Source: a virus | Length of the DNA: 36,795 nucleotides | Strand: one strand, 5' to 3' | IMG/VR virus record: IMGVR_UViG_3300045932_000238 | Span: 1-36,795 of that record | Shown: positions 2,417 to 34,550 of the stretch, piece by piece | Layout: each line of letters starts with the position of its first letter | Numbering within the stretch: the stretch's first letter is position 1 | Notes under the pieces: model-generated | What the model was told of the DNA's origin: nothing | What the model saw: the letters and a program-made list of their open reading frames with translations, nothing else | Database searches by the model: none | Translations under genes and position numbers: made by a program

Positions 2417-2638
2417 ATGACGCGGCGTGACTGGTGGCTAGGTATCGGAGCTATTGCGCTCGTGATTCTGCTTCACGCGGTGTTCCCTCGCTATGAGTGG
2501 CGTGGCGAAGGCACTGGACTCATTCGCATCGACCGGTGGACAGGGTCGGCGGTCGTGGGAACGTGGGAGGCAGGGCGGTGGACGTATCAGCCGACGATCA
2601 CTTTCCGCGTCGAGGACATTGATCGGGAGACGAAATGA
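2417..2638 (+). CDS. Small single-pass membrane protein
   Basis: 73 residues. Residues about 7-24 (LGIGAIALVILLHAVF) form one membrane segment near the N-terminus. A short soluble tail of beta character follows (TGLIRIDRWTGSAVVGTW). A purine-rich GAAGAGG lies just upstream of the ATG. The stop overlaps the ATG of the serine recombinase gene by four bases (ATGA), so the two are coupled. Function unknown. Confidence 0.6.
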   Translation: MTRRDWWLGIGAIALVILLHAVFPRYEWRGEGTGLIRIDRWTGSAVVGTWEAGRWTYQPTITFRVEDIDRETK

Positions 2639-4233
2639 CGCGCGTCGCGCTCTACGCGCGCTATTCTTCGGACCTGCAGCGGCCGGCCTCAATCCCGGAT
2701 CAATTCCGCGAATGCCGCGCCCACGCCGCCACACGCGGCTGGACCATCGTCGCCGAGTACTCCGACGCGGCAACATCGGGAGCCACGATGCTGCGCCCGG
2801 GCGTGCAGGCGCTGATGCACGCCGCGCGGGCCCGCGAGTTCGACGTCGTGCTCGCCGAGGGCATGGACCGCTTGTCGCGCGATCTCGCTGACACCGCCGG
2901 CATCCTGAAGCGATTGCGCTTCGCTGGCGTCGGCCTGCACACCATCCTCGAGGGCGACGTCGGGTCCATGCACGTGGGACTGAAAGGCACGATGAACGAG
3001 CTCTACATCGCGGAGCTCGCGGTGCGGACCCATCGCGGCATGAAGGGGCGAGTGATGCTGGGTAAGCTGGCTGGCGGGCTGTGTTATGGCTACAGACCCG
3101 TGTACGGCGCTCCCGGCGATCGCGAGGTCGACCAATCGGAGGCCGACGTCGTCCGCAATATATATAAATGGTTTATCGACGGCGTCGCGCCAAAGGCGAT
3201 CGCGCGTCGGCTGAATGGTGACGGTGTCGCTGGCCCGCGCGGGCGAGTGTGGAGTCCGAGCACCATCCACGGCCATGCCTCACTCGGCACCGGCATCCTG
3301 AACAACGAGCTCTACGTCGGCCGCCTGGTGTGGAACCGGCAGCGGTACGTCAAGGACCCCGACACGGGCCGGCGCCTGGCCAGGCCGAACGCCGCGGCCG
3401 ATCGTGTCGTCACCGACGTCCCGCACCTCCGCATCATCGACGACACGACGTGGGACGCAACGAAGGCGCGGCAGGCCTCGACGCGTCTGGCCACGCGGAC
3501 GAACATCGGGCGCGCCAGGCGGCCGCGCTATCTGTTTTCAGGTCTCACGACCTGCGCGGTCTGCCACGGCGGATTCACGCTCGGCTCGAAGGACCGGCTG
3601 ATCTGCTACAACGCGCGCGAGCGCGGCACGTGCACGAACCGCCGCGCGATCAAGCGACAGGAAGTCGAGTCGCGCGTCCTCGTGGCCATGCAGGAGCGCT
3701 TCTTCGACCCTGGACATTTCGGTGCCTTCTGCGAGGCCTTCACCGCGGAACTGACGCGACTGCGACGCGAGCAGCTCGCCAGCCAGGCAGGGCAGCGGCA
3801 CGAGCTCGCCGGCGTCGAGCGTCGGCTGAAGGAAATCGTGCGGGCGATCAGCGAGGGCTATCGTTCCGAGTCCATGAAGACGGAGCTGCAGGACCTCGAA
3901 GAGAAGAAGGCCCGGCTCACCGCGTCGCTGGTAGTGCCCCAGGTGCCAGCCCTGCACCCAAACATGGCCCATATATATAGAGAGAAGGCCACGGCGTTGG
4001 CGGCTGGGCTTGTGGACGAAGCTCACCTCGACGAGGCGCGCCAGGCGGTGCGCGGATTCATCGAGCGGATCGAGATTCCGCCGGACGGACTATTACAAGT
4101 GGTCGGCAGCCTGGGCACGATGCTCGAACTCGCCCAGGGCCGGCTGAAGCCGGGGGCAATTGCGTGCGGTATAGATGGTTGCGGGGGCCCGCTGCCACTG
4201 ATGCCGCACGCTTCATTCGTGATCGCAGCCTGA
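2635..4233 (+). CDS. Large serine recombinase (site-specific integrase)
   Basis: 532 residues with the standard three-part layout. Residues 3-150 are the resolvase catalytic domain, with YARYSSD giving Arg9 and the predicted nucleophile Ser11, and the conserved MDRLSRD at 78-84. Residues about 150-280 are the recombinase DNA-binding domain (ADVVRNIYKWF, GVAPKAIARRLN, WSPSTI). Residues 300-335 are a zinc ribbon with Cys307, Cys310, Cys324 and Cys333. A coiled coil at about 375-435 follows. Enzymes of this family integrate phage genomes at att sites through a Ser-DNA intermediate. No attP could be identified beside it. Two internal ATATATATA tracts stand out from the GC-rich background. Probably the phage integrase. 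Confidence 0.95.
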   Translation: MTRVALYARYSSDLQRPASIPDQFRECRAHAATRGWTIVAEYSDAATSGATMLRPGVQALMHAARAREFDVVLAEGMDRLSRDLADTAGILKRLRFAGVGLHTILEGDVGSMHVGLKGTMNELYIAELAVRTHRGMKGRVMLGKLAGGLCYGYRPVYGAPGDREVDQSEADVVRNIYKWFIDGVAPKAIARRLNGDGVAGPRGRVWSPSTIHGHASLGTGILNNELYVGRLVWNRQRYVKDPDTGRRLARPNAAADRVVTDVPHLRIIDDTTWDATKARQASTRLATRTNIGRARRPRYLFSGLTTCAVCHGGFTLGSKDRLICYNARERGTCTNRRAIKRQEVESRVLVAMQERFFDPGHFGAFCEAFTAELTRLRREQLASQAGQRHELAGVERRLKEIVRAISEGYRSESMKTELQDLEEKKARLTASLVVPQVPALHPNMAHIYREKATALAAGLVDEAHLDEARQAVRGFIERIEIPPDGLLQVVGSLGTMLELAQGRLKPGAIACGIDGCGGPLPLMPHASFVIAA

Positions 4234-4264: not shown

Positions 4265-4561
4265 GTGCACTCCTTCGACGTCGTCACATGCGGGGCATCC
4301 AGTCCAGATCCGCATGTTGAATCCAAAGCCATTGCCGCGCGGGCGCGTGTCGGCGCCCCACGAGACGAGGCCTGCTGCGGGAAGCAGCTCCGGCTCGAGC
4401 ACGCCTACCGGTGCGTCGAGTGCGGGCGCTGGGCCCACCGCGCGTGTCTCGAGAAGCACTTCGCCGAGCACCAGACTCCACGCTCAGCGCTGCTGGCTGC
4501 GCTCGATCAGGCGGCCTCGGCGATCGCCGCCGGGCGGCAGGCGCTTGCAGGCAGGCCGTAA
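4265..4561 (+). CDS. Small zinc-finger-like hypothetical protein
   Basis: 98 residues. The GTG start is fixed by a strong AAGGAGG six bases upstream. The middle carries CCGKQLRLEHAYRCVECGRW and then HRACLEKHF, a Cys/His pattern that would suit one or two zinc sites. The C-terminal 30 residues are an alanine-rich helix. Translation ends directly against the next ATG, with no gap. Function unknown. A protein-protein or DNA contact role is only inferred. Confidence 0.6.
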   Translation: MHSFDVVTCGASSPDPHVESKAIAARARVGAPRDEACCGKQLRLEHAYRCVECGRWAHRACLEKHFAEHQTPRSALLAALDQAASAIAAGRQALAGRP

Positions 4562-4798
4562 ATGGCGGCGCCAGCGGCGAACCTCGAAGGGTTCAGAGAC
4601 TGGGCCGTTCTCGATGTCGTGGTGTTGGGGATCTGTCTCCTCGTCGGCGTGATCATCGCCTGGCTGATGGCCAGCGCTGAACATCGTCGACTCATGGACA
4701 AGGCCAAGGGACAGCCCCCGAAGCCGAAGCACCAGTTCATCCCCAGGAAGAAGAACCTGCAGGCCGGAGCACACGATGAAACTCAAGCTGGCGAATGA
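4562..4798 (+). CDS. Small single-pass membrane protein next to the ATPase
   Basis: 78 residues. Residues about 16-36 (AVLDVVVLGICLLVGVIIAW) form one transmembrane helix. A basic cytoplasmic-looking tail (KAKGQPPKPKHQFIPRKKN) follows. The ATG directly follows the previous stop, and the 3' end overlaps the ATPase gene by 23 bases. Tight linkage suggests it could work with, or tether, the ATPase. That is inference only. Confidence 0.6.
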   Translation: MAAPAANLEGFRDWAVLDVVVLGICLLVGVIIAWLMASAEHRRLMDKAKGQPPKPKHQFIPRKKNLQAGAHDETQAGE

Positions 4799-6503
4799 CC
4801 TGTCGCTGCCCCTCGACGTCGTCACCGAGAAACTGGCGTGGCTTGGTCGAACGGGCAGCGGCAAAACGTACGGCGCGATCAAGCTCGCCGAGCTCATGCT
4901 CGACGCCGGCGCGCAGATCGGCGCGCTCGATCCCGTTGGCGTGTGGCGCGGACTGCGCGTCCCGGAGAAGAAAGGCGGCACGTCGTACGACGTCGTTGTC
5001 TTCGGCGGGCTGTACGGAGATCTTCCGCTGCAGCCCGGCGCCGGCGCGCTCATCGCGGACGTCGTGTGCGATCGGGGCATCTCGTTCGTGATCGACGTCA
5101 GCCAGTTCATCGCGTCCGAGCAGCAGCGCTTCGCGAAGTCATTCGCCGAAAGATTCTTCCAGCGCCGAAAGGCCGCGCCGGCGGCGTGTCACTTGTTCAT
5201 GGAGGAATGCCAGGAGTTCCTGCCGCAGAACCCGATGGGCCTCGAGGCGGACACGCTGCACGAGTTCCAGCGGCTGTGGAAGATTGGCCGCAACTTCGGC
5301 ATCGGTGGCAGTCTGATCTCGCAGCGGCCGCAGGAAGTCAACAAGAAAGCCCTGAACATGAGCGGCACGCTGTTCGCGTTTCAAATGACGGCGCCGCAGG
5401 AAAGAAAGGCGGTCAAGGATTGGGTCGCCGACCACGGCATCGCCACGGAGATCGAGAGCGTGCTGCAGAAGCTCGAGGTCGGAGAGCCGCATGTTGAGAG
5501 CCCGATGTTTCTCAACGTGTCGAGGACCGTGCGCATTCTCCCTCGTGTCACGGCGGATCTCTCGAGCACGCCGAAGGTGGGCACGTCGAAGGCGGCGACA
5601 CGGCCGCTCACGCCGATCGACGTCGAGCAACTGAAATCCGCGATGGCCGAAACCATCGAGAGAGCGGCGGCTGACGATCCCCGCCTGCTTCGCCGGCGCA
5701 TCCAGGAGCTCGAGAAGCAGGTCAAGGGTATGAGTTCAACTCATATACCGGCACGTCAGCCGCCGGCTCCAAAGGTCGTGGAGAAGCCCGTGCTGAAGGA
5801 CGCGCAGCTGACGAAGATCGACGCGCTCATCATGCGCACCGAGAAGGCGTTCGATCGTGCCACCAAGCCGGTCGAGGAGCTGCGCAGCGTGCTGAAGACG
5901 CTGAACGACGCCGTGCGACTCGTCCGGCAGCCGGCGCCAGCTGCACGCCAGGTCGTTCAGCCGACCGCCCGCCACATACCTGTCGGGTCGGGGGCCGAGG
6001 CCGCTGACAGACCGTCGCGCGCGACGTCGCCGGCGAGCTCGAACGGCTCTCTCGGCTCCGGCGAGCGCGCCACGCTCATCGCCGCCGCGCAGTATCCCGA
6101 AGGCCTGACCCGCGAGCAGGCCACCATCCTGACGGGCTACAAGCGCTCCACGCGCGATGCGTACATTCAGCGGCTCCAAGCTCGTGGGTTCGTCGATGCG
6201 CGCTTAGGCGACGTCTACGTGACCCAGGCGGGTATTGCTGCGCTGGGGTCGGACTTCGAACCGTTGCCCACCGGGCAGGAGCTGCAGGCCTATTGGCTGC
6301 GCCGGTTGCCCGAAGGGGAGAGGGCGGTCCTCGAGGCCTCCCTGCGCTCGTATCCGCATGCGGTCGACCGCGAGTCGCTCAGCGAATCGACGGGCTACAA
6401 ACGCTCGACCCGGGACGCCTACATTCAGCGCCTGTCGGCGAGGAAGCTTGTAGTGCCAGGGCACGGGGTTGTGAAGGCCAGCGACCACCTTTTCGGCACA
6501 TAA
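4776..6503 (+). CDS. HerA/VirD4-like P-loop ATPase with two winged-helix-like repeats
   Basis: 575 residues. Walker A GRTGSGKT is at 24-31, a Walker B-like strand LFMEECQEF at 140-148, and SQRPQEV at 182-188, the position where HerA/VirD4-type motors carry a Q-R-P motif. About 300 residues of motor domain are followed by a coiled coil (280-385), a Pro/Ala/Ser linker, and two copies of a winged-helix-like unit. Each unit contains the identical stretch TGYKRSTRDAYIQRL, at 453-467 and 539-553. Such ATPases pump or remodel DNA as hexamers. Here the role is unknown. Candidates are DNA transfer, replication or exclusion. It follows a small membrane protein in the same operon. An AT-rich palindrome sits in the linker-coding DNA. 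Confidence 0.8.
   Translation: MKLKLANDLSLPLDVVTEKLAWLGRTGSGKTYGAIKLAELMLDAGAQIGALDPVGVWRGLRVPEKKGGTSYDVVVFGGLYGDLPLQPGAGALIADVVCDRGISFVIDVSQFIASEQQRFAKSFAERFFQRRKAAPAACHLFMEECQEFLPQNPMGLEADTLHEFQRLWKIGRNFGIGGSLISQRPQEVNKKALNMSGTLFAFQMTAPQERKAVKDWVADHGIATEIESVLQKLEVGEPHVESPMFLNVSRTVRILPRVTADLSSTPKVGTSKAATRPLTPIDVEQLKSAMAETIERAAADDPRLLRRRIQELEKQVKGMSSTHIPARQPPAPKVVEKPVLKDAQLTKIDALIMRTEKAFDRATKPVEELRSVLKTLNDAVRLVRQPAPAARQVVQPTARHIPVGSGAEAADRPSRATSPASSNGSLGSGERATLIAAAQYPEGLTREQATILTGYKRSTRDAYIQRLQARGFVDARLGDVYVTQAGIAALGSDFEPLPTGQELQAYWLRRLPEGERAVLEASLRSYPHAVDRESLSESTGYKRSTRDAYIQRLSARKLVVPGHGVVKASDHLFGT
5727..5749. repeat. AT-rich inverted repeat inside the ATPase gene
   Basis: The core is TATGAGTT, one base, then AACTCATA: a perfect 8+8 inverted repeat. 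It is flanked by GG on the left and TACC on the right, so the symmetry nearly continues. It lies in the linker-coding part of the ATPase (residues about 318-325) and is markedly more AT-rich than its surroundings. It looks like an operator or recombinase site, but no cognate protein is known. Confidence 0.5.
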
Positions 6504-9588: not shown

Positions 9589-9893
9589 GCCACCCTGACG
9601 ACATCGCGGTCGCTATCGCGATCGGCAAGGAGAACCGCGAGCTGTCCATGCTCCTGGAGCACGCGATTGCAGAGTTGTCGAAGGCGAACGTGTGTCTGAC
9701 GCCGATACTCGAACACTGGCGGCTGCGCCGCGAGCTCGGACAACAACAGCACCGCGAGGATCTGAAGCGCCGCCTCAGCGCGGTCCCTGTCAAGCCGTCG
9801 CAGCTTGAACTCCAGCGAGCGGCTGAAGCGGAAGTGGCTGCCGCCGCCCAGAGCCTCGTGTCCTCGCTGCGGAATCGGAGGGGACGCGTGTGA
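9585..9893 (+). CDS. Small helical protein between the terminase genes
   Basis: 102 residues, predicted nearly all helix (KENRELSMLLEHAIAELSKA, then LRRELGQQQHREDLKRRL). The ATG overlaps the small terminase stop, and its own stop overlaps the GTG of the large subunit, so all three are translationally coupled. No family recognised. A packaging accessory role is suggested only by position. Confidence 0.65.
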   Translation: MSHPDDIAVAIAIGKENRELSMLLEHAIAELSKANVCLTPILEHWRLRRELGQQQHREDLKRRLSAVPVKPSQLELQRAAEAEVAAAAQSLVSSLRNRRGRV

Positions 9894-11863
9894 TCGCCGA
9901 CACCGCGAATGTCGACGAGCTGCTCGATCGTGCCCTCACGGCGTGGCGGCCGCCGCCGCGGCTGAAGCTATCGGAGTGGGCGGACGAGAAGTACTACCTC
10001 TCAGTCGAGTCCGCCGCGGATCCCGGGCGCTGGCACACGCTGCCGTATCAGCGGGAGATGATGGACTGCTTCACCGATCCCGCTGTCACCCAGATCACGG
10101 TGATGAAGTCCGCGCGTGTCGGCTACACGAAGGTGATCGGCGCGGCGATCGCCTACCACGTGGACCAGGACCCGTGCCCGATCATGGTCGTCCAACCGAC
10201 CTTGCCTGATGCCAAGGGCTACAGCAAGGAAGAGATCGCGCCGCTGATTCGCGATGTGCCCGTGCTGACGGATCGGTTCGCGGCGTTCCGGAACACGCTC
10301 CTCCTGATGCGATTCGTCGGAGGCATCCTGCAGATCGTGGCGTCGACCACCGCGAGCAGCTTTCGACGCGTGTCGCGCCGGCTGCTGTTGCTGGACGAGG
10401 TCGACGGCTACGCGCCCAGCGTCGGCAATGAAGGTGATCAGGTCAAACTCGCCATCCGACGCACGGAGTACTACTGGAACCGGAAAGTCGCGGCGGGCAG
10501 CACGCCGACGCTCGCCGGCGCGAGCCGCATCGAGCTCCTCTTCGCCGCCGGCGATCAGCGTCGGTACTACGTGCCCTGCACGCAGTGCGGACACATGGAC
10601 TATTTCGTGTTCCGCCGTGAAAGCACCGACGGCGCCGGCAAGGCCGTCGGCCACTTCATGATGTGGGACGCGCCTGACGGGTCAGACGCGCACTTCGTCT
10701 GTAGCGTCTGCGGCGGCGTCATCGAGGAGCGGGACAAACGCGACATCATCGCCCGCGGGGAATGGTGTGCCGCGGCGCTGTTCACCGGGCACGCGAGTTT
10801 TCACATCTGGGCCGCGTATAGCTACTCCCCGAACGCCACGTGGCCGCAGCTCGCAGCCGAATACATCGCGGCGAATCGTGAGGGCGTCGAGTCGCTGAAG
10901 ACCTACGTCAACACGGTTCTGGGTGAGACGTGGAAGGACAAGGGGGAAGCGCCCGAGTGGGAGCGGCTCTACGAACGGCGTGAGAGCTACGCCATCGGCA
11001 CATGCCCGGAGGGCGTGCTCTTCCTCACCGCTGGCGTCGACGTGCAGCAAGACCGCCTGGTCTACGAAGTGGTGGGCTGGGGGCGCGGGAAGCGCTCGTG
11101 GTCGATCGATGCCTTCTCCATCCCCGGTGACACCGCGGACGAAACGACGTCGGGGCCCTGGGTAAAGCTCGACGCGGTGCTCGCTCGCACGTTCCGGCAC
11201 GTGTCTGGCGCGGAGCTCGCGATTGCGCGGACGGCGGTCGATAGCGGGTTTCGGACGCAGACGGTGTATAGCTACGCGCGGCGGCACGGCAGCGCTCGTG
11301 TGATCGCCACGAAGGGGACGGATCGCGCAGGCCTGCTGATTGGCACGCCGGCGAAACTCTTCGTCACGGCCAGCGGCAAGCGCATCGGCCACCGTGTCTG
11401 GCCGATCGGCACCCCGGTCGCGAAGAGCGAGCTCTATGGCTGGCTGAAGCTGCCACGTCCGACAGACACGGCGCGCGCCGCCGGCGACAGCGATCCACCG
11501 GGCTACTGTCACTTCCCGCAGTACGACGAAGAGTTCTTCAAGCAGCTCACGGCGGAACGCCTGGTCGGTCAGCGCATCCACACGGGTTTCATCGTGTACG
11601 TCTGGACCCTGCAACCCGGGCGGGAGAATCACTTCCTCGATTGTCGAGTCGGCGCACGCGCGGCGGCCGCCGTCGTCGGCATCGATCGCTTCGCTGAATC
11701 CGATTGGGCGAAGCTCGAGAGCGCCGTCTCTCACGAGCCTCCACCGCCACCGGCGTCGCCGGTGCCGCCGCCGAGCTCCCCAGCACCAGTCCCGTCGGCA
11801 GGGCACGCTCGGCAGGGGCCGTGGATTTCGCCGAAACCGAGCTGGTTCAAGAAAGGACGATAG
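9890..11863 (+). CDS. Terminase large subunit, GpA family
   Basis: 657 residues, the usual length for lambda GpA relatives. The N-terminal ATPase has the variant Walker A KSARVGYTK at 73-81 and Walker B LLLLDEVDGY at 165-174. A cysteine cluster (CTQCGHMDY and later CSVCGG) lies in the middle. The C-terminal nuclease part begins at LTAGVDVQQDRLVYEVVGWG. It packages phage DNA into the prohead and cuts it, acting with the small subunit and portal. The proline-rich tail (PPPPPASPVPPPSSP) is variable. The GTG start overlaps the upstream gene. Strong assignment. Confidence 0.96.
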   Translation: MIADTANVDELLDRALTAWRPPPRLKLSEWADEKYYLSVESAADPGRWHTLPYQREMMDCFTDPAVTQITVMKSARVGYTKVIGAAIAYHVDQDPCPIMVVQPTLPDAKGYSKEEIAPLIRDVPVLTDRFAAFRNTLLLMRFVGGILQIVASTTASSFRRVSRRLLLLDEVDGYAPSVGNEGDQVKLAIRRTEYYWNRKVAAGSTPTLAGASRIELLFAAGDQRRYYVPCTQCGHMDYFVFRRESTDGAGKAVGHFMMWDAPDGSDAHFVCSVCGGVIEERDKRDIIARGEWCAAALFTGHASFHIWAAYSYSPNATWPQLAAEYIAANREGVESLKTYVNTVLGETWKDKGEAPEWERLYERRESYAIGTCPEGVLFLTAGVDVQQDRLVYEVVGWGRGKRSWSIDAFSIPGDTADETTSGPWVKLDAVLARTFRHVSGAELAIARTAVDSGFRTQTVYSYARRHGSARVIATKGTDRAGLLIGTPAKLFVTASGKRIGHRVWPIGTPVAKSELYGWLKLPRPTDTARAAGDSDPPGYCHFPQYDEEFFKQLTAERLVGQRIHTGFIVYVWTLQPGRENHFLDCRVGARAAAAVVGIDRFAESDWAKLESAVSHEPPPPPASPVPPPSSPAPVPSAGHARQGPWISPKPSWFKKGR

Positions 11864-29139: not shown

Positions 29140-29201
29140 CCGATTTCCCATCCAAGAGTGGGCCGCCAAACATGCGACGCATGGGTGCTCGAGGGCGGCC
29201 G

Positions 29202-30893
29202 ATGCCGTCTCAAGGCGCGATCCCGTTTGCTCCGAGCGCAGGCGTGGTCAACGCCCTCTACGTCAACAAACTGACCGGCGACGACAACCGTACGAAGGCC
29301 GAGGCACGCAGCCCGCTGACGCCGTTCGAGACCATCGGCCGCGCTCTGTGGGGTGATGCGGACCGCAACAACCCGACACCTCTCCAAGCTGCCGATGCCG
29401 GGGACACGGTGGTCGTGATTGGAGGGCCCACGCCAGGCTCGGCGATTGTCTACGGCTCCGCCGTCCAGCTCAATGACCGCCTGGGGGTGCTCTATAACCC
29501 CACCAACAGCGGCACGCCAGGGAATTTCATCACGATCACGCCGGATGGCTACGTCCGGCTGGCGGGGCATGCACTGAACGCCGGCGTCATCGGGTCTGTC
29601 GGGAAAGACTGGATCAAGTGGTACGCCGACCGCGCGACGGCGAAGTTCCTGATCACCTGTGACGGACGGTTTGCGTCGGCCGTCAACATCGCGAGCAGCA
29701 CGGTGCCGAGTGCGAACGTCTTGCAGGTGGTCACCGATGGGGATCACAACTTCACCAACGGTGAAGAGGTCCACATTTACAACCATGACTGCACGCCTCC
29801 GTTTGACAACAGTCAAGGATGGCAGGCCATCGTCACCGTCATCAACTCCACCACGTTCGAGATACCCACTCCTGGCGTGACGGTCGGTGGAGGAGCCACG
29901 GGCACGGTGCAGCGAACGGAGGACACGAAAGCCGATACGACCATCGTCAATCCGACCGCGGACACCGGCCCAGTCATCTTCAACGGGAGTGAAAACTGCT
30001 GGCTGGAAGGATTCGACATCGACGGCGGCCCGCAGGTGGATTGGAACGACAACTGGTCGGGCGTTCGTACGGAGAGCGCCTTCAACACGACGATTCGCAA
30101 CTGCAAGATCTGGAACTTCTACGTTCGGTCGGGCGCGGGGAATAGCTCCGCGGTCAAGCACTACTCGTCCGAAGGCACGCTGGTCGAGCAGTGTGAGTTG
30201 CATCATTGCGGAACAGGGATCTCGACCAAGGACATTCCTGGTGGTGCGGAGTTCGGCAACGAGAATTACACCTACCGCCGCCTCTACATCCACGACGTCG
30301 GGTTCACCGGGGACGGTGGGTCGTTCTTCTCGTGGTCGCAGACGGATCAGCTCGGTGGCGACATCACCGAGAATCTCTGCGTCGGTGCGGTGGGCCATGC
30401 CCTCCACATGACCGGCGGCAACATGAACTTCGAGCGGATCTTCAACAACACGTTCGTGGGGTTCGGCCCCTCGGGGACTGGTGATGGAGTCTTCGTCTCG
30501 ACACCGCTTGCGTGGTCAACCGTGAAGATTCTGAACAACATCTGGAGCTCCTCGCCCTCCCGCATGCTGGAGTACTCCGGACAGAACTGCCCAGCGGCGA
30601 CGGCATGCAGCTATCAGCACCAGGTCTACCACCAGACGGCGGGGCAGTTCTACTCCGGGAACGAAGGGAACCTCGATTTCGCGAGCTTCAACAGCGCCCA
30701 CACGGATCAGCATTCCGTAGACCCAGACTCAGTGACCGACGATCCGGAGTTTGTCGATCCTGGGAATGGAGATTACACGCTGGGCGTGTCATCTCCCGCA
30801 CGTGACTTGGGTCGACATCCAGATACCGATGCCGTCGTGGACGCCGGGTGCTATCCGCTCGGTTATAGGGTCCTCGGTTTGGAGGTCGCGTAG
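29202..30893 (+). CDS. Right-handed beta-helix protein (tailspike-like)
   Basis: 563 residues from the ATG at 29202, chosen because GAGGG lies six bases upstream. The ATG at 29172 would add 10 residues. The start resembles beta-helix proteins (ALYVNKLTGDDNRTKAEARS, PLTPFETIGRALWG). The body alternates short strands with Asn/Gly turns: FNGSENCWLEGFDIDGG, TIRNCKIWNFYVRSG, TLVEQCELHHCGTGIS, RIFNNTFVGFGPSGT. This is the fold of tailspikes and pectate lyases that bind or cut polysaccharides. Whether it is catalytic cannot be told. Probably the host-recognition spike. Confidence 0.75.
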   Translation: MPSQGAIPFAPSAGVVNALYVNKLTGDDNRTKAEARSPLTPFETIGRALWGDADRNNPTPLQAADAGDTVVVIGGPTPGSAIVYGSAVQLNDRLGVLYNPTNSGTPGNFITITPDGYVRLAGHALNAGVIGSVGKDWIKWYADRATAKFLITCDGRFASAVNIASSTVPSANVLQVVTDGDHNFTNGEEVHIYNHDCTPPFDNSQGWQAIVTVINSTTFEIPTPGVTVGGGATGTVQRTEDTKADTTIVNPTADTGPVIFNGSENCWLEGFDIDGGPQVDWNDNWSGVRTESAFNTTIRNCKIWNFYVRSGAGNSSAVKHYSSEGTLVEQCELHHCGTGISTKDIPGGAEFGNENYTYRRLYIHDVGFTGDGGSFFSWSQTDQLGGDITENLCVGAVGHALHMTGGNMNFERIFNNTFVGFGPSGTGDGVFVSTPLAWSTVKILNNIWSSSPSRMLEYSGQNCPAATACSYQHQVYHQTAGQFYSGNEGNLDFASFNSAHTDQHSVDPDSVTDDPEFVDPGNGDYTLGVSSPARDLGRHPDTDAVVDAGCYPLGYRVLGLEVA

Positions 30894-31598: not shown

Positions 31599-34550
31599 GT
31601 GGCGGTCACCCAGAGTCATTACCGCTTCGGCATCGACGAGGGGACTGAGTCGACCCACGGGTGGCATGCCGCGGAAGACGCGAATCCATCCGCCGGCGTC
31701 ATTCCGATCAACACGACGTTCCTCCTGCGGTTCTGCCTGCAGTGCGATGGCACGGCCCAGAGCAACGTCGACGCCGAGTTCCAGGTGCGCCGCAACGGCG
31801 GTGCCTACCAAAACATCACGACGTCGTCGAGCATTGTTCGCGCGGTCGCGACCGTCGCCTTTGCCAACGGCGACAACACGACCAAACGCCTGAGTGGCAC
31901 CGGCACGTTCGAGTCGTCGTCCGCGGGGTGCACCGAGGACGGCGTCTCCGGCGGCACGGCGTTCGACATTGTCTCGAACGGCAACGGCGAGACCGAATGC
32001 TCGCTGCAGATTGTCGGCGCCGACGTCGCAGATGGCGACGTGCTCGAGTTCCGCCTGACGCGGGATGGTGGCACACAGCTCGACACCTACGCGGTCACGC
32101 CGAGTCTCACCGTCGTGTTGCCGCAGACGCTCCTGCAGCCGATGCCGGTCCGCGGCTACAACGCGATCCGATCACGCAGCGCCGAGTTTGCGCGCGCGGC
32201 GATCGCCGCGGGCCTACTGCTGCACGTCGCGGGCTTCGTGGACGGCCCGTTGCCCACGCAGCCCGAGACGTGGACGCAGGAGGTCGTCGGTGCCAGGGCC
32301 TGGTCGGGGCTGAAGTCCTGGCCGGCCGGTCCGAACCTCGCGGCGGGAGACGACGTCGCACCAACCAACCAACCGGACACCTACACGCAGCCGATCCCCG
32401 GCACGCGATCGCTGGGGCGAAGCTGGCCGGCAGGCCGCGCCGCGCTGACGCAGGGTCTGCGCATGACCGCGGGCGAGGTGCCGCCGTCGGTGCCAGAGCC
32501 GGACACCTGGGTGGTCGAGATCCCCATTGGCGTACGGGCCTGGCAAGGCCTGAAGGCGTGGCCGGCCGGCCCGAACCTCGCGGCGGGATACGACGTCGCG
32601 CCAGCGAATCAAGAGAGCACGTGGACTCAACCGGTTCCCGGAGTGACTGCGCTGGCGCGTGCGGCCACGGCGTCGCGCCGCCTTGTCACGCTGACCGGTG
32701 GTCTGCGATCGAACATCGGGGAGATCGCGCCGCCCGAGTCTGACACGTGGACAGCGCCGCTGCTCGGCACCGCCGCCCTGCGGCTGGGCGCGTTGAGTCG
32801 TGGCCGCGCCATCTCCGCCTCGCGGCTGGTCCTCTGGTCACTCCCAGAAGAGGACGGGCCGCTCGCACTCCAGGAGAGCACCTGGACGGTGGAGATCCCG
32901 GTCGGCGTGCGCGCGTGGCAAGGGCTGAAGTCCTGGCCGGCCGGCCCGAACCTCGCGGCGGGATACGACGTCGCGCCGGCGAATCAAGAGAGCACGTGGA
33001 CGTCGCCGATCGGTGGTACCACCATTCTCCGAACCACGACTCGTGTGCGGTGGGCACGCGCGTCGGCGAGCTCGCTCGTTCGCAGCCCAGCGGCGTGGGA
33101 TCCGATCGCCGCGGCCCTCGAGGAGAGCACCTGGACGCAACGGACGCCGGGGACGTGGGCGCTCGGTGCATCAGCGCGGGCATTCGCGTCGAGGGCGCAT
33201 CGCGCGACGACGCATCTCCGTGCCAGCGACCGCGATGGTGAGGCGCTCACGGAATCCGGGTGGCAAGGCCCGGTGTTCCATCCAGCTCAGTACCAAAATC
33301 TCGTCTGGCTCCTCTGGTACGGCGCATCCGTCGGCGCCGACAACGCGCCGCTCGACCAGCAGCCGGATACGTACGCGCAGCCGATCCCTGGCACGAGCTG
33401 CGTGCGCAGAGCGATCCAACAGCGCGCACAGCTCGCGGGTCGATCGATCGCACTGCGCCAGTTCGGCGCCGGTGATCAGGCGGCCGCACCAGAAGAACCC
33501 ACGTGGGCACAGCCGACGTCCGGGACTCGCGCGATCCGCGTCGCCGCGGCCGCGCGCGCGCGGGCGCTCTCTGCTGCACGGTTACAGATCTGGACGACGG
33601 CGCAGGACGCTGACGCGCCGCTGCCAACGCAGGAGAGCACCTGGACGCAGCAGGTGCCAGGCACGCGGGCCCTGGCAGCGAGCACGCGCCTGGCGTGGCG
33701 GGTCGCAGCGACGCAGCTCCTGCGCAGCTACAGCGCGTTCGACCCGTTGACGCCACCGCCGGAAGAGAGTACCTGGACGCAGCCCGCGAGCGGCGCCGGC
33801 GCCTTGCGCATCCAGGCGGCTCGGGCGACCGTGCGTGCGGCGATCGCGCGCGCGCGCCTCTCGGACACGGCGCAGGACGTCGACGGACCGCTTGCGGCGC
33901 AGCCCGACACGTGGCTTCAGCCCCTCCCGGGCACGCGTGCTCTCGAGGGTCGCCGCCGGGCCCTGCAGGCGATCGCCGCGGCGACCGTCTCGCAGCGCAG
34001 CGCTCGCACGGACGAGGCCTCCGCCGAGGAGCCTGCGTCTGCGACGACGTCGGCGATTGGTACGCATCGTTGGCTGACTGATGCCGCCGCACGGCGCTCG
34101 CGGGTGCGCGCGTTCGGGCTGTTGGTCTGGTCCGGATCGGCCGACATCGAGCAGGAACCCGCGACGCCCTGGACGCAGCCCGTCGTCGGCACGGCTGCAC
34201 TGCGGCAGATGGCCGCCGCCCGATCGCAACGCGCCGCGCTCGTCACGCGCCACGCGTATGTGGTGCCCGGCTACGACGACGGTCCACTGCCGGCACAGCC
34301 CGATACGTGGGTCTCGCCGATCGGGGGCACGCGATCGCTGCGCGCGCGCGCCATCGAGCTCTGGCGACTCGCGACGCGGTTCCTGGCCTGGGGCAGCCGA
34401 GACGACCGCATCGAGAGCACACCGGTCATTGCGCGCGTCGGCTCGTACTCGCCCACACTCGATCGCAGTGCGGAGTACTCCGCATACGTGGCGCGCACCG
34501 CGGACTATCAGCCGACGATCGATCGCGTCGGCGGCCTGCCGGAGGGATGA
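31599..34550 (+). CDS. 983-residue protein with about 17 Trp-anchored repeats
   Basis: GTG start. Residues 1-175 form a beta domain (YRFGIDEGTESTHGWHAAED, FLLRFCLQCDGTAQSNV, FRLTRDGGTQLDTYAVTPSL) as seen at the N-terminus of other phage virion proteins. From about 215 to 915 run degenerate repeats, each with a core like ESTWTQPVPGTRAL. The anchoring Trp or Tyr falls at 225, 262, 304, 342, 384, 429, 467, 512, 555, 592, 635, 682, 726, 772, 858 and 904, with one position near 817 degraded. The spacing is 37-47 residues. Arg/Ala helices link the cores. Three repeats carry a near-identical WPAGPNLAAG segment, at 241, 321 and 446. The end has SYSPTLDRSAEYSAYVA. Likely a fibre; function unknown. Confidence 0.8.
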   Translation: MAVTQSHYRFGIDEGTESTHGWHAAEDANPSAGVIPINTTFLLRFCLQCDGTAQSNVDAEFQVRRNGGAYQNITTSSSIVRAVATVAFANGDNTTKRLSGTGTFESSSAGCTEDGVSGGTAFDIVSNGNGETECSLQIVGADVADGDVLEFRLTRDGGTQLDTYAVTPSLTVVLPQTLLQPMPVRGYNAIRSRSAEFARAAIAAGLLLHVAGFVDGPLPTQPETWTQEVVGARAWSGLKSWPAGPNLAAGDDVAPTNQPDTYTQPIPGTRSLGRSWPAGRAALTQGLRMTAGEVPPSVPEPDTWVVEIPIGVRAWQGLKAWPAGPNLAAGYDVAPANQESTWTQPVPGVTALARAATASRRLVTLTGGLRSNIGEIAPPESDTWTAPLLGTAALRLGALSRGRAISASRLVLWSLPEEDGPLALQESTWTVEIPVGVRAWQGLKSWPAGPNLAAGYDVAPANQESTWTSPIGGTTILRTTTRVRWARASASSLVRSPAAWDPIAAALEESTWTQRTPGTWALGASARAFASRAHRATTHLRASDRDGEALTESGWQGPVFHPAQYQNLVWLLWYGASVGADNAPLDQQPDTYAQPIPGTSCVRRAIQQRAQLAGRSIALRQFGAGDQAAAPEEPTWAQPTSGTRAIRVAAAARARALSAARLQIWTTAQDADAPLPTQESTWTQQVPGTRALAASTRLAWRVAATQLLRSYSAFDPLTPPPEESTWTQPASGAGALRIQAARATVRAAIARARLSDTAQDVDGPLAAQPDTWLQPLPGTRALEGRRRALQAIAAATVSQRSARTDEASAEEPASATTSAIGTHRWLTDAAARRSRVRAFGLLVWSGSADIEQEPATPWTQPVVGTAALRQMAAARSQRAALVTRHAYVVPGYDDGPLPAQPDTWVSPIGGTRSLRARAIELWRLATRFLAWGSRDDRIESTPVIARVGSYSPTLDRSAEYSAYVARTADYQPTIDRVGGLPEG

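Follow-up and report, generated by a model that had tools for sequence, protein, structure and literature searches.

What does a temperate soil phage do with an ATPase of the DNA-pumping kind whose C-terminus carries a putative DNA-reading unit twice? The question is raised by a gene located at positions 4776-6503 (plus strand) of the window, i.e. the whole stretch of 36,795 nucleotides that was analysed. The initial annotation had recognized a HerA/VirD4-like ATPase here, and an intact gene for a HerA-type ATPase is confirmed: the open reading frame starts with ATG, is backed by homologues and encodes a protein of 575 amino acids (P0001), and all three ATPase motifs were located in its translation. 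The explanation we favour, at a probability of about 0.5, is that P0001 is a stand-alone HerA-class translocase for double-stranded DNA, probably hexameric, that is aimed by two rigidly linked C-terminal winged-helix heads at a target consisting of two equal half-sites.

The window represents a temperate phage with a contractile tail and encodes a serine integrase (2635-4233, assigned by domain search), small and large terminase subunits, a portal protein, head proteins, tail sheath, tape measure and baseplate hub. The motor gene sits between the integrase gene and an HTH gene, and its start is overlapped by 23 nt by the gene for a one-helix membrane protein (4562-4798). An open reading frame immediately upstream of the latter (4265-4561) encodes a small cysteine-rich protein with weak PHD/RING-like matches (best E 0.014, below the cut-off), and two long open reading frames in the tail-end region (29172-30893 and 31599-34550) lack a PHROG match at E 0.001. 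The membrane protein and the integrase had been pointed out as neighbours of the motor gene. Both statements are true for the window but neither can be generalized: a TM-like open reading frame ends at the motor gene start in 10 of 183 loci, and of 21 records with a recombinase gene, 7 have it within 2.5 kb as compared to 3.2 at random (P 0.027). The comparison of neighbourhoods that had been proposed was run on 186 loci and did not reveal any obligatory partner. The commonest families within 3 kb of the motor gene, named from Pfam matches of single members or by eye, are DUF5131 (29 loci), ParB-like proteins (20 loci) and tyrosine-recombinase-like proteins (12 loci). An effector partner such as NurA, SIR2, DUF4297 or similar did not emerge, with no neighbour family exceeding 29 of the 186 loci. 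DUF5131 (phage Gp37/Gp68-like) is also encoded in the window, at 14-943. The ParB-like neighbours are mostly situated upstream on the same strand, with PF02195 present in 11 of 37 records, and a link to partition is possible. On two actinobacterial plasmids, genes with an FtsK/SpoIIIE domain directly adjoin the motor gene (L315, 1-3795; L005, 4750-7539).

The HerA-class ATPase domain, delimited by sequence searches, the structural model and Foldseek, covers residues 1-270 (4776-5585, end approximate). Walker A (GRTGSGKT, residues 24-31, 4845-4868), a Walker B-like strand (HLFMEE, residues 139-144, 5190-5207) and the SQRP motif (residues 182-185, 5319-5330) are seen in the translation as well as in the homologue alignment, and the combination of Walker A, Walker B and the Q-R strand in a single RecA-like core is the hallmark of the HerA/FtsK superfamily. 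In an alignment of 74 homologues the invariant columns include G29, K30, E144, G171, G175, R184, W216, D301 and P302, while R172 and Q183 are conserved in at least 90%. Lack of conservation of the Walker residues had been named as a reason for doubt; instead, the catalytic residues proved to be invariant or nearly so. Assignment of the motor to the HerA clade was likewise corroborated. The nearest fold of the full-length AF2 model (pLDDT 89.3, pTM 0.61) is HerA (4d2i_B, Foldseek E 2e-13), HerA models of PADLOC (E 1.2e-15) and NCBIfam match, and a sequence search retrieved PDB chain 8wiv_A (E 2.2e-7). Pfam DUF87 matches the ATPase part weakly (E 0.00065, 20.3 bits, below the Pfam cut-off). Defence HerA models align to part of P0001 only, and the HerA/defence equivalogs of NCBIfam score far below their cut-offs (32.8 bits versus 800 and 29.6 versus 970). 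Pfam searches at E 0.1 gave no HAS-barrel family; in the model, the P-loop begins at residue 24 and is preceded by a short pair of strands. FtsK_gamma was likewise not matched at this threshold, neither by the entire protein nor by the head region, and no nuclease domain was matched in P0001. Going by these fold families, P0001 is probably hexameric, likely binds and translocates double-stranded DNA and is likely a DNA pump that works in an FtsK- or TraB-like manner.

C-terminal of the motor, the AF2 model predicts long helices (residues 283-383, 5622-5924, with a break near 328-336) that link it to the heads and are separated from the head pair by a disordered stretch (residues 385-422). Repeat units and a model of the head pair define head 1 (residues 424-483, 6045-6224) and head 2 (residues 497-572, 6264-6491). 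Modelled alone (AF2, 32 sequences), the pair consists of two winged helices (pLDDT 95.9) with the same order of elements. Head 1 aligns with many MarR chains at Z scores of 10.5-13.0, the best being 6pcp_B (Z 13.0, rmsd 3.2, 74 aligned). The duplicated winged-helix unit of the initial annotation is supported, with a predicted MarR-like fold. Foldseek matches of the head pair include the winged helices of SelB, which binds RNA, and of ScpB; FtsK_gamma is absent among the fold matches listed for the heads, which is no evidence either way. The 15-residue sequence TGYKRSTRDAYIQRL indeed occurs twice, at residues 453-467 (6132-6176) and 539-553 (6390-6434), and both copies run into the predicted recognition helices (residues 457-469 and 543-555). 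Chance can be excluded as the origin of this duplication because the same two-unit C-terminus is present in 182 scorable non-redundant homologues, with a nearly constant head-to-head spacing (median 87 residues).

Relatives were confirmed on at least 539 stretches in a profile scan of IMG/VR, of which 80 were kept. The family is hardly represented among sequenced phages, a single one (MW202482) of 50,697 phage records holding a relative. Among 72,556 plasmid records there are 102 with a match, which is mostly confined to the ATPase, and nine span at least 80% of the query. Relatives are encoded on actinobacterial and Gemmatirosa plasmids; metagenome-assembled genomes of several phyla also carry the family, and a scan of genome contigs yielded eight loci in records titled Polyangiaceae, Pyxidicoccus, Gemmatimonadetes (two), Acidobacteria, Elusimicrobia, Armatimonadetes and Anaerolineales. 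The relative from a haloarchaeal plasmid (L009, 1-1656) combines the motor with a coiled coil and one C-terminal unit was found, whereas L317 encodes a headless relative. In a protein from Manatee Spring (L003, 19992-21860) an extra stretch is inserted between helical arm and heads, which by eye we take to resemble a MazG-like domain. Our literature searches found neither a paper describing this two-headed motor family nor a description of paired, swappable specificity of a DNA pump.

The repeated motif noted in P0001 is the visible part of a more general phenomenon, a family-wide matching of the two helices that is invisible from one sequence. In 80 proteins, identity across the 16-column helix core amounts to 78% when the two heads of one protein are compared and to 41% when different proteins are. 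Compared with the three proteins nearest by ATPase the value is 44%, and the maximum over 1000 local reassignments is 0.478. For this first set, L001, L010, L031, L016, L072, L007 and L056 were removed as duplicate or truncated; the helix-matching count also omits the frameshifted L002 and L086, and the archaeal L009 had one unit. Matching is strongest at columns 48-51 and 54, in P0001 represented by T459, R460, D461, A462 and Q465 in head 1 (within 6132-6176) and by T545, R546, D547, A548 and Q551 in head 2 (within 6390-6434), which we refer to as the code. In 70 of the 80 proteins, head 1 and head 2 agree at all five code residues, a count that is not an independent test because the columns were picked after inspecting this set. 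They were fixed before 102 new proteins were scored, and in this independent set all five are identical in 82 (mean 0.945 within versus 0.325 between proteins, permutation maximum 0.400). The new set derives from 167 loci with 166 proteins, 60 of which were removed as at least 90% identical. Two of the remaining 106 had one unit (L159, with head 2 cut off, and L191), and two had gaps in the code columns. Over both sets, the code is equal in both heads in 152 of 182 proteins and differs in at least one residue in 30, while between proteins it matches at about 33%, with 102 different codes among the 182. Column 51 is the same in both heads in 180 of the 182 proteins. In the largest class (45 proteins) it is T, A, S, R, E or D, and the minority residue is doubled in 23 of 23 cases. 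Even the length class of the recognition helix is equal in both heads in 175 of 182 proteins, as compared to 88 expected, and eight of ten two-headed proteins from isolate plasmids have identical codes, L006 and L007 being one residue off. Two matched reading heads are very likely a property of the P0001 family.

It is conceivable that the match is a mere by-product of fresh duplication or gene conversion, devoid of meaning for the target. Codon agreement is indeed slightly higher within than between proteins (0.466 versus 0.397, 182 proteins that differ in codon usage). Still, at identical residues the same codon is used in 574 of 1196 cases, with 555 expected from each gene's own usage, and the lack of an excess over this usage argues against recent gene conversion. 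Fresh copies, on the other hand, would share their scaffold, which the two heads do not: for 351 of 364 units the closest scaffold is that of the unit occupying the same position in another protein, and for just one unit it is that of its own partner. Judged by scaffold similarity, the head duplication is old, as old as the family, and we consider a by-product very improbable. The sequences rather suggest that selection probably holds two old, diverged heads to the same reading residues while these residues change. The simplest cause would be a target with two equal half-sites, which, given two recognition helices that are alike within one protein, should lie at fixed spacing.

Head pairs and motors were also compared as separate modules. 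The 68 pairs of proteins with ATPases 70-92% identical exhibit a mean code identity of 0.31, with 51 pairs at or below 0.4, whereas in the 14 pairs whose head scaffolds reach 70% identity or more, code identity is 0.94 at an ATPase identity of 0.49. Across 16,471 pairs, no correlation exists between identity of the ATPase and identity of the scaffold (Spearman -0.005). Code identity amounts to 0.31 in 41 flank-related pairs and to 0.27 in pairs without flank similarity, so that a genome-tied code is not favoured. L014 and L039, which have related flanks and the same heads combined with dissimilar motors, point in the other direction, as at the nucleotide level the L014 motor is 78% identical to the motor of L042, whose heads belong to a different class. 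A link between heads and genome would be favoured here, but this is a single case set against the value of 0.31 over 41 pairs. Flank composition, taken as a stand-in for the host, gave a mixed result and was therefore not used as evidence (distance 0.207 at ATPase identities of at least 0.7 versus 0.302, and 0.278 for head-sharing pairs; over all pairs, Spearman +0.04 for the ATPase with a Mantel share of 0.9 and -0.06 for the scaffold with a Mantel share of 0/200). According to these sequence comparisons, head pairs and motors have independent histories and head pairs are exchanged between motors; the contigs are metagenomic, so that some may be chimaeras, and within-protein matching is also present in isolate plasmids.

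Where could the target be located? We consider the chances about even that it is part of the DNA of the very phage or plasmid that encodes the motor. Scans for 4+4 dyads in the flanks of 16 RDT-type loci, for repeated dyads and for repeats within the window gave nothing convincing, and k-mer enrichment in 11 contigs with the same code revealed no clear polar guide motif and no KOPS-like enrichment. The candidate CCTGA N10 CCTGA was rejected since it stems mainly from one tandem-repeat stretch in G023, by eye a pentapeptide-repeat gene. In a presence-based search for dyads, the top 5-mer matches in the DTQ group recur for the most part at periods that are multiples of 3 and were discounted because such periods arise from codon usage. 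The best repeat beside the motor gene is not in excess. Periodic hexamers near the gene were found in three instances where 0.56 would be expected, with a P of 0.02 that is post hoc, ten settings having been tried. Two leads may be mentioned. In the related pair L019/L020, TGAG[AG]CCCCCCA occurs twice, 30 bp apart, just 3' of the gene, and the two codes are one residue apart, with S replaced by G at column 50 of either head. On a plasmid of Mycolicibacterium vanbaalenii (L004, 9828-9863), TGGTGC is present four times at an exact spacing of 10 bp, starting 21 bp after the stop codon. In L163, TTACTAGTAAA forms three head-to-tail copies with a period of 11 bp, roughly between 51 and 20 bases ahead of the motor gene start.

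P0001 resembles several established systems without coinciding with any of them. Regulators of the MarR family share the fold of each head. They pair two chains to read a palindrome, whereas both heads of P0001 reside within one chain that is fused to a motor. The DNA reader of TraB is presumably a winged helix as well. TraB from Streptomyces is described as a P-loop motor for double-stranded DNA on mobile elements, which assembles on 8-bp repeats at clt, moves double-stranded DNA and has its DNA-reading domain aimed at an element-specific site with no need for a relaxase (PMC4170104, PMC12857230). P0001 differs in having two matched heads per chain, a core that by closest fold is of the HerA and not the FtsK type, no membrane part and no conserved membrane or spread genes alongside. 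FtsK and SpoIIIE likewise pump double-stranded DNA and use a C-terminal winged helix to read a guide sequence, KOPS in the case of FtsK_gamma (PMC8190038), while P0001 features two heads with a highly variable code and lacks both an FtsK_gamma match and a KOPS-like enrichment. HerA systems with NurA, SIR2 or DUF4297, among them the anti-phage system DUF4297-HerA (PMC11291478), are nearest in motor fold and motor sequence; P0001 has no HAS-barrel match, no partner gene and, in addition, C-terminal tandem winged helices. In Bacillus phages Sam46 and Sam112, FtsK_gamma is reported to be fused to the small terminase, a further case of a phage protein having taken over a winged helix of the pump type; as described there, the fusion has no motor, one head and host-like conserved DNA-binding residues (PMC8190038). 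Judged by the missing FtsK_gamma and HAS-barrel matches, the low equivalog scores and the missing effector partner, P0001 is not a member of the FtsK, canonical HerA or HerA-defence groups.

Other functions have to be weighed against a directed pump. Transfer, partition and exclusion, as raised in the initial annotation, are conjectural roles. P0001 could be a two-headed transcription switch or a site-bound scaffold at an operator with two equal half-sites, its assembly being controlled by ATP with no pumping involved, and the code would then be comparable to the repressor specificity of immunity groups. The likeness of the heads to MarR regulators, the position between integrase and HTH genes in the window and the lack of a nuclease or any other partner gene fit this reading. 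Nevertheless, we regard it as unlikely, as 74 homologues retain the complete HerA-type catalytic set, for which a plain regulator would have no use, and an excess of repeats beside the motor gene was not seen. Heads that read competing or incoming DNA, with a motor that displaces or blocks it and a code that varies in an arms race, would account for the great diversity of codes, and HerA motors do act in anti-phage systems as described in PMC11291478. Exclusion or defence of this kind is nonetheless quite unlikely in our view, given the lack of an effector partner, the partial alignment of defence HerA models and the low scores of the NCBIfam defence equivalogs reported above.

Alternatively, the heads may bind RNA or protein and the matching may serve symmetric contact there, as the occurrence of SelB and ScpB among the Foldseek matches might suggest. 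We judge this improbable, since the variable matched residues are located on the recognition helix and the best one-head alignments are with MarR regulators, which bind DNA. Finally, P0001 matches phrog_2666, labelled terminase large subunit, at 2.8e-14, so that an automated pipeline would wrongly call it a terminase, and the packaging ATPase B204 of STIV2 is among the fold matches. A role as the packaging motor of the phage was nevertheless rejected and can practically be dismissed: a GpA terminase large subunit with a nuclease domain (9890-11863, Pfam), a small subunit and a portal protein are all separately present in the window, which means that packaging has its own motor, GpA is also found in 9 of 36 other records, and the motor gene occurs on plasmids, too. 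The statement that this is not a standard packaging gene therefore holds.

If P0001 is a directed DNA pump, the two heads with the same recognition helix would bind a site of two equal half-sites at fixed spacing and would load the motor at this site on the element's own DNA, as FtsK_gamma does at KOPS and TraB at clt. The motor would then translocate double-stranded DNA, and its likeliest use would be to segregate, resolve or move the DNA of the element. More tentatively, and with less than even confidence, we propose a general address code of mobile DNA, in which a common pump is fitted with an interchangeable two-headed reader whose code would mark the element's own DNA, so that the pump acts on self and not on relatives or host. 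If this is true, one common pump is shared by phages and plasmids across several bacterial phyla in more than 100 code versions among 182 proteins, any change in the two half-sites has to be paralleled in the two heads, and head pairs move as complete cassettes from motor to motor. Few sequence-directed DNA pumps are known (FtsK, SpoIIIE, TraB), and the present family is large, with specificity residues that are readable from the protein, highly variable and duplicated. It constitutes a natural data set for the recognition code of winged helices and allows one to ask how specificity switches if a change has to involve two heads and two half-sites at once.
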